The notes under the pieces are model-generated. The model did not search any database. It saw only the letters and a list, made by a program, of their open reading frames with translations, and had not been told where the DNA came from. Shown here one piece after another: positions 1,927 to 56,504 of a stretch of 64,000 bases of DNA (its first letter is position 1; each line of letters opens with the position of its first letter). The position numbers and the translations under genes were made by a program. Location: assembly GCF_000151205.2 (NCBI RefSeq), contig NC_016051.1:1-64000 (forward strand). The letters are read 5' to 3'. The DNA comes from Thermococcus sp. AM4. GTDB taxonomy: Archaea > Methanobacteriota_B > Thermococci > Thermococcales > Thermococcaceae.

Positions 1927-2559
1927 ATGGACGGGGAGCTCATTGAGTTCTATGCAAGCGAGGCGTTGAGCTGTCCAAGGCGTATTTACTTCCGGCTGAT
2001 GGGTTATCCCGAGAGGTGGCCCGAGTTTGTAAAGGTCAGGCTGAACCAGGGAGTAAACACGCACGGTGTCCTCGGGGAGATACTGAACAAGAGGTTCGGC
2101 TTTGAGCTGGAAAAGCACCTCGTCTTGAGATCGAGAAAGCTTGGGTTTGAAATCCACGGCAGAATAGACGCCTTTCGGGAGTTTCCAATCGAGATCAAGG
2201 GCAAAACGAGCCTCCCCCGGGTTCCCTACGAGTCTCACCTTGCTCAGCTCAACGTGTACCTCAGATGGGCTGAGGCCGAATACGGGTACCTCTACTACGT
2301 CAAACTCCACGAGAGGCCTTTAACGGTGATAAGCAAGCTTGACTTCTCCAATTTCCCAGTCATCAAGGGGCCCAACTTCAGGGCGTTTGAAATCCCGTAC
2401 GATGAGAAGCTCTTCAAGGAGACTCTGCGCCATTTCTATAACGTCAAAAAGGCCTATGAGCGGGGTAAACCTCCCAAGGGGGAGTACTCTTACCTGTGCC
2501 GGTTCTGTCCATACAGGTATCTGTGCTATCCCGACGGAAACGGGTTTGAGAAGGATTGA
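1927..2559 (+). CDS. Cas4/Dna2-like PD-(D/E)XK nuclease with Fe-S cysteines, stand-alone
   Basis: The 210-residue protein has the Cas4/RecB-nuclease layout: His46 in the THGVLGEIL helix, Asp81 in GRIDAF, and Glu89-x-Lys91 in IEIKGK form the metal-binding nuclease site. Cys16 (SCPRR) together with Cys191, Cys194 and Cys200 (CRFCPYRYLC) would bind a 4Fe-4S cluster that staples the N and C termini. The start at 1927 follows GGAGGGAAGGAA; an upstream in-frame start is less well placed. There is no CRISPR array or other cas gene in the window, so a role in DNA repair or processing rather than spacer acquisition is my inference. Confidence 0.8.
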   Translation: MDGELIEFYASEALSCPRRIYFRLMGYPERWPEFVKVRLNQGVNTHGVLGEILNKRFGFELEKHLVLRSRKLGFEIHGRIDAFREFPIEIKGKTSLPRVPYESHLAQLNVYLRWAEAEYGYLYYVKLHERPLTVISKLDFSNFPVIKGPNFRAFEIPYDEKLFKETLRHFYNVKKAYERGKPPKGEYSYLCRFCPYRYLCYPDGNGFEKD

Positions 2560-50461: not shown

Positions 50462-50517
50462 TATCTTTCCCCTCAGGCTCTTTCTCGCGATCCGTTAAAA
50501 GGTTTCCCGACCGAAAA

Positions 50518-50566
50518 CTTTATAAACTCTGCATGCATATGTAATATTGAAGTTACACATGCAGAG
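50518..50566 (+). promoter_or_regulatory. Promoter with 40-bp nested palindrome before the DUF2202 gene
   Basis: The TATA element ACTTTATAAAC is at 50518-50528. From 50527 to 50566 runs a long dyad: outer arms CTCTGCATG/CATGCAGAG and inner arms TGTAA/TTACA around TATTGAAG. It covers the expected start of transcription, and its right arm includes the ribosome site GAGGTGA region, so it looks like a repressor operator. The ArsR-like protein encoded downstream at 52892 is a natural candidate. Confidence 0.7.
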
Positions 50567-50576
50567 GTGAAGAGAC

Positions 50577-51425
50577 ATGCGGAAAATATGGATGGGTGTG
50601 GGGCTCATTGCCCTCCTTATAGGTACGGTGTTTGGACTCGCGGCGGCGTGGAGGGGCCAGCCGGGACCCAGTCCCTACGCGGCAGTGGATTCCCAGCAAC
50701 TCAACGGAACGGTTAGCACCTACTACTCCGATCTCAGCCAGGATGAGATCGACGGCCTGCTCTACATGGTTGAGGAAGAGAAGCTCGCCAGGGACGTTTA
50801 CATTACCCTCTACAACCTAACGGGTCTTCAGGTGTTCGACAACATCGCCAAGAGCGAGCAGAGGCACATGGATGCCGTGCTAAGCCTGATAGAGAAGTAC
50901 AACCTGACCGCGCCGGACACGCTCGACCAGGTCGGGGTCTTCCAGAACGAGGAGCTCCAGAACCTCTACGACCAGCTCGTCCAGATGGGAAGCCAGAGCA
51001 CCGAGGACGCCCTTAAGGTCGGTGCCCTCATCGAGGAGACCGACATAAAGGACCTCGAGGACTGGATCGCCAAGACCGACAACGAGGACATCAAGACCGT
51101 CTACAGCAACCTCATGGCCGGCAGTGAGAACCACCTCAGGGCCTTCGTTGGCCAGCTCGAGAGGCTCGGTGTGGACTACACGGCCCAGGTGCTTCCTCAG
51201 GAGCAGGTCGATGAGATCCTTTCAAGCGAGTGGAGCCACGGAAAGGGCATGGGAATGGGAGCCGCTCAGGAGATGAGGAAGAATGGAATGAGGGGAGGTG
51301 ATGCCCCAGGACATGGAAACGGAATGTGCGATGGCCAGATGGAGATGAAAAAGGGTGGACATGGAGGACACGGAAAGGAACACACCTGCGGATGCGAGGA
51401 TCGTGCCTTCAGGGGGCACCGCTGA
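50577..51425 (+). CDS. Exported DUF2202 ferritin-like protein with metal-binding tail
   Basis: A 282-residue protein with an N-terminal membrane anchor or signal (GVGLIALLIGTVFGLAAAW). The DUF2202 domain has ferritin-like metal-ligand patterns: EEEKLARDVYITLYN with SEQRHMDAV, and GALIEETDIKDLEDWI with SENHLRAF, that is two E...ExxH sets. The last 60 residues are rich in Gly, His, Met and Cys (HGKGMGMG, GHGNGMCDGQMEMKKGGHGGHG, HTCGCED), suggesting metal binding outside the cell. It is about 60% alike over the domain with the second DUF2202 protein at 52126. ATG follows AGAGGTGAAGAGAC. Confidence 0.8.
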   Translation: MRKIWMGVGLIALLIGTVFGLAAAWRGQPGPSPYAAVDSQQLNGTVSTYYSDLSQDEIDGLLYMVEEEKLARDVYITLYNLTGLQVFDNIAKSEQRHMDAVLSLIEKYNLTAPDTLDQVGVFQNEELQNLYDQLVQMGSQSTEDALKVGALIEETDIKDLEDWIAKTDNEDIKTVYSNLMAGSENHLRAFVGQLERLGVDYTAQVLPQEQVDEILSSEWSHGKGMGMGAAQEMRKNGMRGGDAPGHGNGMCDGQMEMKKGGHGGHGKEHTCGCEDRAFRGHR

Positions 51426-51493
51426 ACCCCTTTTCTTTTCTTTGGGGTGATGGAGATGATATGCCGATTTAAATGCCCACCGGAGGTGGTCCC

Positions 51494-52129
51494 ATGAGGG
51501 CATCTGCGCTGGTGAGGAGCATCGTCGATCTCCTGCTCACCGTAACGTTCATCGTTATAGCCATCACGGGTATAGGTCTGTACCTTGCCCCAAGCGGAAG
51601 GATAGCCCACACCGTTAACTGGACCTTCCTCGGAATGGATAAGGATACCCTTACCCTGATCCACACGTACTTCGGGTTCGTGATGATCGCCCTGGTGGCG
51701 GTTCACCTGATAATAGGTTTCCGCAGCATGCTGATCATGCTCAAGTCCGCCCTGCGGAGTTCAAAGCTGAAGGTCGTTGCCGCCCTGCTGGTACCCCTCC
51801 TGCTGATAGCGGGCGGTTATTCGGTCTTCGCGGCCTACAGCGGGGAGGAAGAGGAGCAGTCCACAGGTCTGGAGGAGTACAACACTACCGAGGGCGTCGA
51901 GGGAGTGTATATTACCGGCACCATGATGAAGTACTACACCGTTCAGGAGCTCGCCGACGAGTTCCACGTTCCCGTCGATGGCCTCATCGAGAAGCTGAAG
52001 GAGAGGGGAATCGAGGCAACGCCCGACGAGAGCCTCGCCGAGATCGAGTACAAGTACGATCTGGACAGGGAGGAGTTCAAGGCCATGCTTGAGGAGATAA
52101 TAGCGGAGCTTGGAGGGGGTGGTTCATGA
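51494..52129 (+). CDS. DUF4405-like membrane protein, possible b-type cytochrome
   Basis: A 211-residue protein with three N-terminal membrane helices (IVDLLLTVTFIVIAITGIGLYLA, YFGFVMIALVAVHLIIGF, VVAALLVPLLLIAGGYSVFAAY). Histidines in the membrane region (IAHTVNW, LIHTYFG, VAVHLII) could hold heme, as in DUF4405/cytochrome b561-like proteins. The C-terminal 80 residues (YYTVQELADEFHVPVDGLIEKLKERG and on) form a small helical domain resembling an HTH-like fold outside the membrane. ATG 51494 follows GGAGGTGGTCCC. It overlaps the next gene by four bases (ATGA). Confidence 0.72.
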   Translation: MRASALVRSIVDLLLTVTFIVIAITGIGLYLAPSGRIAHTVNWTFLGMDKDTLTLIHTYFGFVMIALVAVHLIIGFRSMLIMLKSALRSSKLKVVAALLVPLLLIAGGYSVFAAYSGEEEEQSTGLEEYNTTEGVEGVYITGTMMKYYTVQELADEFHVPVDGLIEKLKERGIEATPDESLAEIEYKYDLDREEFKAMLEEIIAELGGGGS

Positions 52130-52833
52130 GGAAGGTACTCGGCATCCTGCTGGTCGGTTTGATGGTGTTGGCCGTCTTTGGAGCGGGATGCATCACGGGG
52201 GAAACAACAACGACCGGTGAGGGAACGGGTTCCTCGATGGGGCACGGTCCCCCGGAGGGTAAGGGATACGGGGGTAGGGGACCAGGATCATCCACCCAGG
52301 AGGTCACCAACGTATCCTCGTATCCGGCTCAAAACCTGAGCCAAGATGAGATTGAGGCAATCCTCTACATGAGGGAGGAAGAGAAGCTCGCCAGGGACGT
52401 TTACCTCACCCTCTACAACCTGACGGGCCTCCAGATATTTGACAACATAGCGAGAAGCGAGCAGACTCACATGGACATGGTGCTCGGCCTCATCGAGAAG
52501 TACAACCTCACGGACCCCGTTGCCGGTATGGGAGTCGGGGAGTTCAACAGTACTGAGATGCGGGACCTCTACGAAAAGCTCGTTGCGCAGGGAAGCAAAA
52601 GCGAGGTCGATGCCCTCAAGGTAGGGGCCCTCATAGAGGAGATCGACATCAAGGATCTCGACGAATGGCTTGAGAGGACTGACAACGAGGACGTAAAGGT
52701 CGTCTTTGAAAGCCTCAGGGAGGGCAGCGAGAACCACCTGCGGGCGTTTACGCGGATACTCTCCAACCGGTACGGAGTGACCTACGAGCCCCAGGTGCTC
52801 AGCAAGGATGAATACGAGTCCATAGTCGGTTAG
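52126..52833 (+). CDS. DUF2202 ferritin-like lipoprotein
   Basis: A 235-residue protein with a lipoprotein-type signal (VLAVFGAGCITG, cysteine near residue 22), a Gly/Thr/Ser-rich linker and a DUF2202 domain. The domain repeats the metal-ligand patterns EEEKLARDVYLTLYN, SEQTHMDMV, GALIEEIDIKDLDEWL and SENHLRAF. It lacks the His/Met tail of its paralogue at 50577. Translation is coupled to the DUF4405-like gene, so the two products probably act together at the outer face of the membrane. Confidence 0.8.
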   Translation: MRKVLGILLVGLMVLAVFGAGCITGETTTTGEGTGSSMGHGPPEGKGYGGRGPGSSTQEVTNVSSYPAQNLSQDEIEAILYMREEEKLARDVYLTLYNLTGLQIFDNIARSEQTHMDMVLGLIEKYNLTDPVAGMGVGEFNSTEMRDLYEKLVAQGSKSEVDALKVGALIEEIDIKDLDEWLERTDNEDVKVVFESLREGSENHLRAFTRILSNRYGVTYEPQVLSKDEYESIVG

Positions 52834-52891
52834 TCGGAAAGCTTTTATCTCCCTTTTCTTATTCCCTCCAAGGGAACCAGCGGTGTTGAAA

Positions 52892-53185
52892 ATGGTGCAG
52901 AGTGTCGAGGAACTTGCAACGGTTTGCGAGGCATTGGCCAATCCCGTTCGAATACGGTTACTCAAGCTTCTCTCCCAGAAGGAATGGTACGTCTACGAGC
53001 TGGCCAAAACCCTCGGGATATCGCGGCAGCTTCTCTACCTTCACCTGAAAAAGCTTGAGAAGGCGGGACTCGTTGAAAGCGAACTCAGACTTGAGCCGGA
53101 CGATCCCAGAGCCAAGAAGTACTACCGAGCAAAGCCCTTCAGGCTGGTTATAGACAACCAGACGATAATGAATTTGGAGGGATGA
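52892..53185 (+). CDS. ArsR-type winged-helix regulator
   Basis: A 97-residue HTH protein: ALANPVRIRLLKLLSQKEWYVYELAKTLGISRQLLYLHLKKLEKAGLVES is a typical ArsR-family winged helix with the recognition helix SRQLLYLHLKKLEK. There is no cysteine pair for classical metal sensing, so any signal is likely different. It lies in the DUF2202/DUF4405 cluster, and I suggest it binds the palindrome at 50527-50566, without direct evidence. ATG 52892 is preceded by GCGGTG; a TATA-like CTTTTATC is at about 52842. Confidence 0.82.
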   Translation: MVQSVEELATVCEALANPVRIRLLKLLSQKEWYVYELAKTLGISRQLLYLHLKKLEKAGLVESELRLEPDDPRAKKYYRAKPFRLVIDNQTIMNLEG

Positions 53186-53208
53186 AAATGCCTTGGGGAG
53201 GTGAGCAC

Positions 53209-53397
53209 ATGTCCACGCCAAGCGGATGGATAAGCATAATCCTCGGTTTGATCATTCTCGTAGTTCTCGTGTTCGCGTTCTACCAGGTGAACAAGACGCT
53301 GAACGAGTTCAAGGTTGAGATTGAGCGGCTTAAGAGCGCCCTCGAGGAAACAAAGAGGAACACCGAAGAAGTGAAGAAAAAGCTCGAAGAGGTTTAA
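53209..53397 (+). CDS. Small membrane protein with coiled coil
   Basis: A 62-residue protein with one membrane helix (WISIILGLIILVVLVFAFYQV) followed by a coiled-coil helix with heptad-spaced hydrophobics (LNEFKVEIERLKSALEETKR and on). ATG 53209 is chosen because GGGGAGGTGAGCAC lies just upstream; the start at 53182 would overlap this ribosome site. It follows the ArsR-like gene closely and may be part of the same unit. Confidence 0.7.
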   Translation: MSTPSGWISIILGLIILVVLVFAFYQVNKTLNEFKVEIERLKSALEETKRNTEEVKKKLEEV

Positions 53398-53696
53398 CTC
53401 CTCAAAAGCTCCAGCTCCTTTTTCATTATGCCTCTGTTCATGATCAGATGGATAATTATCAGAGCCATCATGATCAGGCCGTACTTCGACCTGAGCTTGA
53501 GGAAGTCCATTTGGGTCATCCCCATAAAGCTTCCATGCTTCGCCGAAATGAACGTCCCGATCGTTATGAAGATAACGCCGAGGAACGCCACGAGCAGTAT
53601 CAAGGAGAATGTGGCCTTGATCTTCAGCTTCTTTTTCATTTTCGGGTTTTTCTTCGCCTCTTCAAACACCTTCGCCATTGGATCTACTTGTATCAC
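53394..53696 (-). CDS. Two-helix DUF4405-like membrane protein
   Basis: A 100-residue basic protein with two membrane helices (FSLILLVAFLGVIFITIGTFI and YGLIMMALIIIHLIM). The stretch LRSKYGLIMMALIIIHLIMNRG resembles HTYFGFVMIALVAVHLIIGFRS of the DUF4405-like protein at 51494, including the in-helix histidine, so it looks like a shortened relative. GTG 53696 or ATG 53678 could be the start. The stop overlaps that of the convergent coiled-coil gene by four bases. Confidence 0.65.
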   Translation of the reverse strand: MIQVDPMAKVFEEAKKNPKMKKKLKIKATFSLILLVAFLGVIFITIGTFISAKHGSFMGMTQMDFLKLRSKYGLIMMALIIIHLIMNRGIMKKELELLRS

Positions 53697-53811
53697 CGGA
53701 AGGTTTACGGGGCCGGCTTTAAAAAGGTGCTGCTACACGTTTCTGTCCATCTTAGCGTTCAGACCCAAACTTTAAAAGGATTAAATGCCTCTATCTTACC
53801 AAGGTGATAGC

Positions 53812-54639
53812 GTGGGCGTTTTTAGGGACTTAAAGGTTATAGGCTCGGACAGGGTAACTGCGATAGGCCTCGGCACCTGGGGAATAGGTGGCTACGAGAG
53901 CCCTGACTACTCGCGGGACGAGGAGAGCGTCGAGGTTCTCCGCTACGGCCTCGAACTCGGCATAAACCTCATAGACACCGCCGAGTTCTACGGCGCCGGC
54001 CACTCGGAGGAGCTCGTCGGAAGGGCCATCGAGGGCTTTGACAGGGACGAACTCTTCATCATCAGCAAGGTCTGGCCCACGAACTTCGGCTACGAAAGGG
54101 CGAAGAGAGCGGTAAGGGCGAGCACTAAGAGGCTCGGCACCTACATTGACCTTCACCTTCTCCACTGGCCCGGCGAGAGCTGGAGGAAGATAGAAGAAAC
54201 TTTACACGCGTTGGAGGAACTCGTTGATGAAGGCCTCATCCGCTACATCGGCGTCAGCAACTTCGATTTGGAGCTTCTGAAACGCTCTCAGGAGGCAATG
54301 AAGAAGTACGAAATCGTCGCCAACGAGGTAAAATACTCCCTCCGCGACCGCTGGCCCGAAACGAGTGGACTTCTCGACTACATGAAGAAGGAAAAGATTG
54401 CGCTGATAGCTTACACCCCGCTGGAGAAGGGTTCCCTCGCGAGGAACCCATGCCTGGCCGAGATTGGGAGAAAATACGGAAAAACATCGGCCCAAGTCGC
54501 GCTAAACTACCTGATATGGGAGGAGAACGTTATAGCGATTCCCAAAGCCAGCAGGAAGGAGCACGTGGAAGAGAACGCCGGAGCTATGGGCTGGAGATTG
54601 AGCAGGGAAGATAGGGAGAAAGCCCGGAGGTGCCTTTGA
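53812..54639 (+). CDS. Aldo/keto reductase
   Basis: A 275-residue NADPH-dependent TIM-barrel oxidoreductase. Catalytic Asp, Tyr, Lys and His are in NLIDTAEFYGAGHSEELVG, IISKVWPTN and LLHWPG; RYIGVSNFDLELL and cofactor-binding IPKASRKEHVEENAGA complete the family pattern. The GTG at 53812 follows AAGGTGATAGC and gives the usual N terminus MGVFRDLKVIG. It overlaps the tungstoenzyme gene by one base, suggesting both act on the same aldehyde or carbonyl compounds. Confidence 0.9.
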   Translation: MGVFRDLKVIGSDRVTAIGLGTWGIGGYESPDYSRDEESVEVLRYGLELGINLIDTAEFYGAGHSEELVGRAIEGFDRDELFIISKVWPTNFGYERAKRAVRASTKRLGTYIDLHLLHWPGESWRKIEETLHALEELVDEGLIRYIGVSNFDLELLKRSQEAMKKYEIVANEVKYSLRDRWPETSGLLDYMKKEKIALIAYTPLEKGSLARNPCLAEIGRKYGKTSAQVALNYLIWEENVIAIPKASRKEHVEENAGAMGWRLSREDREKARRCL

Positions 54640-56504
54640 TGTATGGATACAAGAACAGGATAGCGAGAGTAAACCTGACCGAGGGAAAGGTCACCTACGA
54701 GGAACTGCCCGACGAGGTGATAAGGAAGTTCGTCGGCGGAAAGGGCCTCGGCTACTACCTGATTTATCGGGAGGTCCCGCCGGGAACCGACCCGCTCAGC
54801 CCGGCCAACAAGTTCGTTTTCGCCACCGGTGGATTGACAGGCCTGATTCCGGGTTCGAGCAAGGTCATAGCCGTTAGCAAGAGCCCTGAGACGAGACTTA
54901 TAAGCGATTCAAGCGGTGGAGACGCCTTCGGACCCAAGCTCAAGGGGCACTTCGACGCGATAATCATCGAAGGTAAGGCGGAAGAGCCGGTTTACCTCTA
55001 CATCCATGATGGGGAGGTCGAAATCCGGAATGCGAAGCACCTCTGGGGCAGGGGCAACTACGAGGTTGCCAAGGAACTCTGGAAGGAGCACCCGAAGGCA
55101 AGCCTAGCTTTAATTGGCCCGGCCGGCGAGAGGCTCAGCAGAATTGCCAACGTGATTTACGACACCGAGCGCGCGAGCGGAAGGGGCGGTCTTGGAGCCG
55201 TCCTCGGGAGCAAGAAGGTTAAGGCCGTTGTGGTTGAGCCGGGGGAGAAGCCAACGGTTGCCAGCCCGGAGGAGTTCCAGAAACTGTGGCAGGAGTTCTA
55301 CGAGCACTTCGCGACAGACCCGAAGTACGAGCACCTGAGGAACTACGGGACGAGCGACGGAGTTAGGAGCTCCGCCTCGCTCGGAATGAGCCCGGCCTAT
55401 AACTTCTCAAGGCCATACATCCCGGAGGAGCTGGCGGAGAAGCTGAGCGGGGACGAGGTCAAGAAGTACGAGGTAGAGCCGGAGTGGTTCGTCCACGGCA
55501 AGAGCTGTCCGATTAAGTGCGCCAGGTATGTAGAGGTCGAATACAAGGGCAGGAGAATCCGCGTCAAGCCCGAGTACGAGAGCATCGCGATGCTTGGAGC
55601 GTCAACGGGCGTCTTCAACTTTCCAGCGGTAGCCTACTTCAACTGGCTCGTCAACAACCTCGGCCTCGACAGCATAGCGACCGGCAACACAATAGCCTGG
55701 TTCTTTGAGCTGGTCGAGAGGGGCCTCATAAGCGAGGAGGAGATAGGGTTCCCTGTCAGGGGCTTCGGCGACGAGGAGGCCGAGGAGAGGCTCATCAAGC
55801 TGATGGCCGAGAGGAGGGGCATTGGAGCGATTCTCGCCGATGGCGTGAAGAGGGCCTGCGAGAGGCTCGGCAGAGGTTGCGAGTTCGCCGTGCACGTGAA
55901 GGGCATGGAAGCGCCCGCATGGGACCCGCGCGGAAGGAGGACCTACGCCCTCAGCTACGCCACCGCCGACGTTGGAGCGTCTCACCTGAGGGGCTGGCCG
56001 AGGCCCCATCAGCTACCGAACCAGGGGCCGGCGAAGGAGCTCGTGCCGTCGATGATAGAGGGCAGGGACGAGAGCTACATCACCGACATGCTCGGAACGT
56101 GCAAGTTCGTGTCCTACAAGATGGAAGACCTGGCTAAGTTCTACTCGCTCGCGACCGGCGAGGAATGGACGGTCGAGAGGCTAAGGAAAATTGCTCAGGC
56201 CGTTGAGAGCATCGCGCGCATACACGACGCCCTCGACTGGGTGACGCCTCCGCTCGACGACACGATTCCACCGCGCTGGTGGGAGCCGGAGCCGGACGGG
56301 CCGGCCAAGGGCAACAAGGCCTTCATCGACTACAACGACTTCCTTGAGGCGAGGAGAGAGTTCTACAGGCTCAGGGGATGGCACGAGGAGCTCGGCGTCC
56401 CGTTGCCGGAGACGATGGAAGAGCTCGGCTATCCGGAGTTCAGGGAAGATGCCGAGAAGGCTTTGGAAGTCGTAAAGAAGAGGGCTGGCATCCAGATCTC
56501 CTGA
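54639..56504 (+). CDS. Tungsten-dependent AOR-family oxidoreductase (WOR4-like)
   Basis: A 621-residue member of the aldehyde:ferredoxin oxidoreductase family, which oxidises aldehydes and reduces ferredoxin with a tungstopterin. The N terminus (GGKGLGYYLIYREVPPGTDPLSP), GGLTGLIPGSSKV, RASGRGGLGAVLGSKKVKA and GMEAPAWDPRG are family motifs. The usual cluster motif CxxCxxxC is incomplete: only the last two cysteines exist (GKSCPIKC), with Gly in place of the first; the fourth is in LGTCKF. A three-iron cluster was reported for P. furiosus WOR4, which would fit. Substrate unknown. It follows GGAGGTG and is coupled to the aldo/keto reductase gene. Confidence 0.83.
   Translation: MYGYKNRIARVNLTEGKVTYEELPDEVIRKFVGGKGLGYYLIYREVPPGTDPLSPANKFVFATGGLTGLIPGSSKVIAVSKSPETRLISDSSGGDAFGPKLKGHFDAIIIEGKAEEPVYLYIHDGEVEIRNAKHLWGRGNYEVAKELWKEHPKASLALIGPAGERLSRIANVIYDTERASGRGGLGAVLGSKKVKAVVVEPGEKPTVASPEEFQKLWQEFYEHFATDPKYEHLRNYGTSDGVRSSASLGMSPAYNFSRPYIPEELAEKLSGDEVKKYEVEPEWFVHGKSCPIKCARYVEVEYKGRRIRVKPEYESIAMLGASTGVFNFPAVAYFNWLVNNLGLDSIATGNTIAWFFELVERGLISEEEIGFPVRGFGDEEAEERLIKLMAERRGIGAILADGVKRACERLGRGCEFAVHVKGMEAPAWDPRGRRTYALSYATADVGASHLRGWPRPHQLPNQGPAKELVPSMIEGRDESYITDMLGTCKFVSYKMEDLAKFYSLATGEEWTVERLRKIAQAVESIARIHDALDWVTPPLDDTIPPRWWEPEPDGPAKGNKAFIDYNDFLEARREFYRLRGWHEELGVPLPETMEELGYPEFREDAEKALEVVKKRAGIQIS

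Follow-up and report, generated by a model that had tools for sequence, protein, structure and literature searches.

The first 64 kb of the single-contig genome of Thermococcus sp. AM4 (2,086,428 bp), referred to here as the window, carry at positions 50518-53696 a cluster of six genes that includes two DUF2202 genes, a gene for a DUF4405 membrane protein and a gene for an ArsR-type regulator. This DUF2202/DUF4405/ArsR cluster is real and its core genes recur together across the Thermococcaceae. A palindromic operator lying over the first promoter of the cluster marks a regulon comprising DUF2202 genes, DUF4405 genes and two unannotated families, termed c5 and VPVRGF, and the presence of the operator follows the presence of the ArsR gene. 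The tying of these genes into one regulon by the operator appears to be new. We consider it somewhat probable that the cluster serves as the principal operon of a small redox or metal regulon of the Thermococcaceae, repressed by the ArsR-type protein, in which the DUF4405 protein would wire electrons to or from the DUF2202 proteins.

A conserved operator marks a regulon

Cross-genome comparison identified the motif ATATGTAA-N8-TTACATAT in front of the leading gene in nearly all modules of this kind. In the window, the motif reads ATATGTAATATTGAAGTTACACAT, with one mismatch, and occupies positions 50537-50560 (no strand). It follows the first promoter's TATA box, TTTATAAA (50519-50526, plus strand), which is itself preceded by a sequence resembling a B recognition element, CCGAAAAC (50511-50518, plus strand). 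Counted from the first base of the TATA box, most operators begin 18-19 nt further on, and in nearly all aligned promoters a TATA box is found 17-21 nt upstream. An operator in this place covers the point, about 25 bp past the TATA box, at which transcription is expected to start, a location suited to an archaeal repressor. An earlier note, made from the window sequence, had described a 40-bp palindrome over the first promoter and proposed it as the target of the regulator. The palindrome, CTCTGCATG-N22-CATGCAGAG (50527-50566, no strand), was recovered by palindrome search; its 9-bp arms (50527-50535 and 50558-50566) are exact, it is unique in the 2.09 Mb genome and beyond chance expectation, and it encloses the operator. 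Its outer arms are common to few relatives; the part conserved family-wide is the inner element at 50537-50560. An operator over the first promoter is supported. A hairpin in the mRNA was rejected as a reading of the 40-bp palindrome, since transcription is expected to start beyond the left arm and since it is a DNA palindrome of fixed spacing that is conserved. A search for sigma-70 promoters and terminators returned nothing above shuffled sequences.

The operator was then counted in 94 Thermococcaceae genomes. With up to two mismatches, 177 sites were found, compared to 37 for a reversed-pattern control. When spacers of 2 to 16 were allowed, all 62 exact sites among the matches listed had a spacer of 8; these 62 sites fall in 44 genomes, 42 of which carry the ArsR gene. 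Exactly two sites are present in the AM4 genome (control, zero), both upstream of DUF2202 genes: the second, at 887428, lies 837 kb from 50537-50560, ahead of a gene whose product is a lipoprotein carrying two DUF2202 domains. Among 87 promoter-placed sites in the fetched loci, 55 precede DUF2202 genes, 15 c5 genes, 9 DUF4405 genes and 5 members of the VPVRGFLF family (84 in total), proportions that are biased because part of the loci were fetched for holding DUF2202 or ArsR. The operator alone led to the VPVRGF targets and the stand-alone c5 targets. Operator sites are present in 50/50 near-complete ArsR-positive genomes versus 7/20 ArsR-negative ones; in these seven the sites mostly have two mismatches, and the site of genome G077 lies at an ArsR paralogue.

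The two unannotated families differ in character. The c5 proteins (L210:3125-3586, L215:2930-3397 on the minus strand and L078:3687-4154) are secreted proteins of about 150 residues with a signal peptide, a PGPNP motif and a His/Met-rich stretch, and fall in no Pfam family; their signal-peptide region resembles that of the first DUF2202 protein of the window. The VPVRGF proteins are cytosolic, with about 105 residues, a V-P-V/I-R-G-F-L motif and no significant Pfam match. Their genes have the operator in several genomes (L208:653-955, minus strand; L209:3202-3510; L214:3259-3576; L216:3062-3379, minus strand).

The core genes are linked within and beyond the Thermococcaceae

Linkage was analyzed in the same 94 genomes, with 60 neighbourhoods and 57 ArsR contexts examined. 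DUF2202 is present in 60 genomes and DUF4405 in 74, and about 60 have a close ArsR orthologue (mostly with 69% identity or more). Forty-nine of the 57 ArsR contexts hold DUF2202 and/or DUF4405, and 39 hold both. In genomes at least 95% complete, the ArsR by DUF2202 counts are 47/3/2/18 (p about 1e-11, a nominal value as the genomes are related). Upstream of the ArsR gene, the module takes either a short form, as in the window, DUF2202 - [c5] - DUF4405 - DUF2202, or a long form, c5 - DUF4405 - CC2 - CWB2-like surface protein of 390 residues - DUF2202 - c5 - small transmembrane (TM) protein.

Outside the family, one genome per species was scanned, giving 80 DUF2202 loci. A DUF4405 gene is the direct neighbour of DUF2202 in a Caldithrix metagenome-assembled genome, in two Anaerolineales and in another member of the Chloroflexota, and these DUF4405 partners have the architecture of the window protein, including similar repeats that follow the membrane portion. 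Pairs separated by at most 1.5 kb occur in 4 genomes versus about 0.1 expected in the 46 genomes of the fetched loci (P about 4e-6, uncorrected for the relatedness of the two Anaerolineales). DUF4405 is the commonest Pfam family (4) among 65 same-strand neighbours of DUF2202, and cytochrome b561 is found in 2 more. DUF2202 adjoins DUF4405 or cytochrome b561 in the Chloroflexota, the Calditrichota and the Gammaproteobacteria. The co-occurrence check that the earlier note had proposed thus found linkage of DUF2202 with DUF4405 and ArsR in the Thermococcaceae, and the lack of DUF2202-DUF4405 linkage elsewhere, named there as a refutation, is contradicted by both the Thermococcaceae and the bacterial pairs.

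The two cytochrome b561 genes (L105:7297-7872 and L128:8899-9534) are full-length and belong to Thiothrix and a tubeworm symbiont, both sulfur-oxidising Gammaproteobacteria; an EF-hand protein is encoded after a DUF2202 pair of Thiothrix (L104). In the window, genes for an aldo-keto reductase (AKR) and an aldehyde ferredoxin oxidoreductase (AOR) follow the cluster at 53785-56504 and have no operator; such genes also lie near the cluster in the rearranged loci L044, L062, L088 and L090.

Products of the cluster

All six genes described in the earlier note, referred to here as A to F, are present where it had placed them, as seen from the sequence, the open reading frames (ORFs) and Pfam. Genes A (50577-51425) and C (52126-52833), both on the plus strand, encode exported DUF2202 proteins that are 51% identical over the aligned region. 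A carries a signal peptide and ends in a 65-residue tail rich in His, Met and Cys (16 in all); C has the lipobox FGAGC. Both match PF09968 above the cut-off (E 3e-61 for A and 9e-59 for C), and the AlphaFold model of A, searched with Foldseek, is a four-helix bundle related to MJ0754 of Methanocaldococcus jannaschii (PDB 3q4n, 3q4o, 3q4q and 3q4r), with which A shares its domain (identity about 56% when aligned by Foldseek; phmmer E 7.5e-58). Much weaker matches follow to aldehyde-deformylating oxygenase, symerythrin and bacterioferritin. Residues E66-E68, E94xxH97, E153 and H186 are invariant over 32 diverse DUF2202 sequences. An extracytoplasmic ferritin-like protein, as the earlier note had it, is supported. 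A literature search on DUF2202, MJ0754 and COG4902 returned nothing; no assigned function was found for DUF2202, and MJ0754, for which structures are available, likewise has none assigned.

Several DUF2202 loci have features of their own. On an Ideonella dechloratans plasmid (L095, 5767-6486), an unannotated DUF2202 frame contains an in-frame stop and is a possible pseudogene, and broken copies are found in genomes G004, G007 and G011. On a Pseudanabaena plasmid (L094, 5854-6507), a DUF2202 gene lies 3' of genes for psbA, heme oxygenase, a flavoprotein and a methyltransferase. In a member of the Chloroflexota (L134:1879-4242), the sole Pfam match of a 787-residue frame is DUF2202, at the C-terminal end.

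Gene B (ORF 51473-52129, plus strand), which overlaps C by 4 nt, probably starts at 51494, 3' of the ribosome site GGAGGTGG and at a Met conserved in relatives. Its product has three predicted TM helices followed by an IF2_N-like domain that the predicted topology places outside the cell. It matches PF14358 (DUF4405, E 2e-16), and one of its TM helices carries a conserved His pair, H64-x13-H78. This is the spacing found in the helices of bc1-type cytochrome b. Both His are 100% conserved in 34 Thermococcaceae DUF4405 proteins and in the Caldithrix and Chloroflexota partners, and a purified bacterial DUF4405 protein binds heme b (PMC11334425). The DUF4405 match and the invariant His pair bear out the b-type cytochrome-like membrane subunit of the earlier note. 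The same does not extend to the short two-TM protein encoded by gene F (53394-53696, minus strand): it scores 17.8 bits to DUF4405, below the cut-off of 26.7, and reading of its sequence shows Arg at the first heme-type His; a functional heme DUF4405 is not supported. Gene F is conserved at some loci.

Gene D (ORF 52883-53185, plus strand; likely start 52892) encodes an ArsR-type winged helix of 100 residues (HTH_20, E 2e-13; HTH_5, E 2e-12). A metal-sensing role was rejected because conserved metal ligands are absent and the NCBIfam metalloregulator cut-off is not reached (51.7 bits for a cut-off of 55): among the Cys and His residues, only H54, in the recognition helix, is conserved in all orthologues, and no Cys is. 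Cys31 is present in 50 of 54 orthologues; in the window copy this residue is Ser, and a Cys stands at position 15. The majority of orthologues contain a single Cys, fewer than the two or more redox Cys of SurR and MsvR. A thiol or redox switch through the single near-conserved Cys is possible for D, because archaea do have a winged-helix switch with one Cys (OxsR, PMC9426492).

Gene E (53182-53397, plus strand), which overlaps D by 4 nt, encodes a small protein with one TM helix and a coiled coil predicted to be cytoplasmic; the gene recurs at nearly every ArsR locus, lying directly after the ArsR gene in 55 of 57 contexts. An ArsR paralogue (39% identical; L240-L253) has GTAA-N8-TTAC at its own promoter, immediately past the TATA box; in most copies, the next gene encodes a 96-residue, two-TM coiled-coil protein (for instance L247:2484-2795 and 2197-2487, minus strand). 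This same-spaced site at a paralogue with its own membrane partner is the main reason for assigning the operator to D, alongside the co-occurrence of operator and ArsR gene. Pairs of ArsR and membrane coiled-coil proteins may represent a simple, unrecognised design of archaeal signalling. Two published transcriptomes touch on related genes: the ArsR genes tg0841, tg0849 and tg1583 of T. gammatolerans respond to Cd (PMC3407056), none of them mapped to the D orthologue, and an iron-stress study of T. kodakarensis names the ferritin-like Tk1059 and Tk1099 (PMC12827226), not mapped to cluster genes.

Proposed mechanism and alternatives

From these data we infer a role for the cluster as follows. 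D would bind ATATGTAA-N8-TTACATAT over the expected transcription start and repress the genes behind it, and E would tether or antagonise D at the membrane. On relief, DUF2202 proteins would be made outside the membrane, A free with its metal-binding tail and C lipid-anchored, together with the membrane protein B. A dimer of B could hold two b-type hemes by H-x13-H on one helix and pass electrons through the membrane, either towards the metal site of DUF2202 or away from it. The best guess for the task is that the system handles an oxidant, or iron, reductively at the surface of the cell and is switched by redox state.

Several observations weigh against this scheme. Helix 4 of DUF2202 carries SxNH in place of ExxH, the usual diiron glutamate being replaced by Ser183, whereas ferritin-like diiron proteins have the ligand set E + ExxH + E + ExxH, and from the sequence a standard diiron site is for this reason not certain. 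Among the MJ0754 entries, one is described with Zn2+, a metal that is not redox-active. The structure model of B is weak (AlphaFold; predicted TM-score (pTM) 0.37, best PDB match E 1.8). DUF4405 and ArsR occur without DUF2202 in some genomes (L062, L071), and most bacterial DUF2202 genes are without a DUF4405 neighbour, which is why the pairing of DUF2202 with DUF4405 or a cytochrome is recurrent, not obligate. The draft genomes G047 and G057 have exact operators with no ArsR found. HemB and HemC were found in none of the 94 genomes (11 of 14 control genomes were positive): heme is not made de novo in these genomes' hosts, and AM4 seems unable to make it. Heme-type DUF4405 proteins are nonetheless common in the family. 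Heme must therefore be taken up or scavenged, or the His pair serves something else. A literature search found no expression data for the cluster.

Four other explanations were considered. It is unlikely that the DUF2202 proteins are passive surface scavengers or stores of metal (Fe, Zn, Cu, Ni) with DUF4405 functionally uncoupled from them. The tail of A, the Zn2+ form of MJ0754 and the incomplete fourth-helix diiron motif would suit such a role, as would the co-regulated secreted c5 proteins, which likewise have H/M-rich N termini; adjacency to DUF4405 or cytochrome b561 is however repeated in several phyla, and B and C overlap. We give still less credence to binding of the operator by another regulator, of which the ArsR-coiled-coil pair would be merely a target or neighbour. 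No operator was found directly 5' of the ArsR gene, some pairs have neither DUF2202 nor an operator nearby (L050, L059, L065, L066 and L068), and the two ArsR-minus drafts carry exact sites. Against this, every near-complete ArsR-positive genome has sites, those of ArsR-negative genomes are mostly two-mismatch, at a paralogue or in drafts, and the paralogue has a site of the same spacing at its own promoter. Similarly improbable is a Thermococcaceae DUF4405 that no longer carries heme and binds metal ions or acts as a membrane anchor: the absence of HemB and HemC would fit, but neutral drift would not have kept both heme-type His in all sequences, and a cytochrome b5-like fusion in T. barophilus, reported in PMC5898192, places another heme domain in this group of heme auxotrophs. 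Chance colocation or functionless inherited synteny, to which the often retained PGM, AKR and AOR neighbours would point, is hardly credible, since it is contradicted by an operator common to unlinked DUF2202 loci and by the recurrence of the same core in several syntenic contexts over six genera and of DUF2202-cytochrome pairing in bacteria.

A bolder version of the electron-wiring scheme is conceivable, and we regard it as doubtful: a heme-auxotrophic hyperthermophile would run an outward ferritin-like enzyme through a wire of scavenged heme b, switched by a new pair of ArsR and coiled-coil membrane proteins that reports membrane or redox state, the paralogous pair suggesting a general two-gene design. 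Conserved heme-type His in a family unable to make heme pose a sharp question on heme scavenging by vent archaea. An operator with a defined gene list is a direct handle on the regulon, which can be switched, measured and deleted in genetically tractable Thermococcus, and offers a way to the function of DUF2202, a widespread and structurally solved family.

Comparison with known systems

The earlier note had called the system undescribed. This does not hold, as Makarova, Galperin and Koonin had in 2015 reported the neighbourhood of arCOG04002 (DUF4405) in Thermococci, CL1_0239-CL1_0246 of Thermococcus CL1, and proposed iron-dependent electron transfer for it (PMC5898192); the available part of that paper makes no mention of the operator, the regulon, its unlinked targets, bacterial recurrence or heme auxotrophy. 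Within the literature searched, we found no published account of the operator, of a regulon with unlinked targets, of ArsR-coiled-coil pairs, of bacterial recurrence or of the heme paradox.

B shares the conserved-His DUF4405 domain with the flavinylation-associated DUF4405 cytochromes and with FezC of ferrosomes (PMC11334425). Those proteins have six TM helices and either sit with ApbE- or flavodoxin-like partners or are themselves components of ferrosomes, whereas B has three TM helices, an IF2_N-like domain and DUF2202 partners; no ApbE or FMN-binding family was found among the cluster genes, to which this search was confined. D resembles SurR and MsvR, archaeal ArsR-family thiol switches with 2 and 5 Cys, respectively, in being an ArsR-type winged helix-turn-helix regulator of redox genes, and OxsR, a single-Cys switch of the TrmB family, in its small winged helix-turn-helix and its single, in D near-conserved, Cys (PMC9426492). 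It is shorter than SurR and MsvR and has at most one conserved Cys, and it differs from all three in its operator and in its membrane coiled-coil partner.

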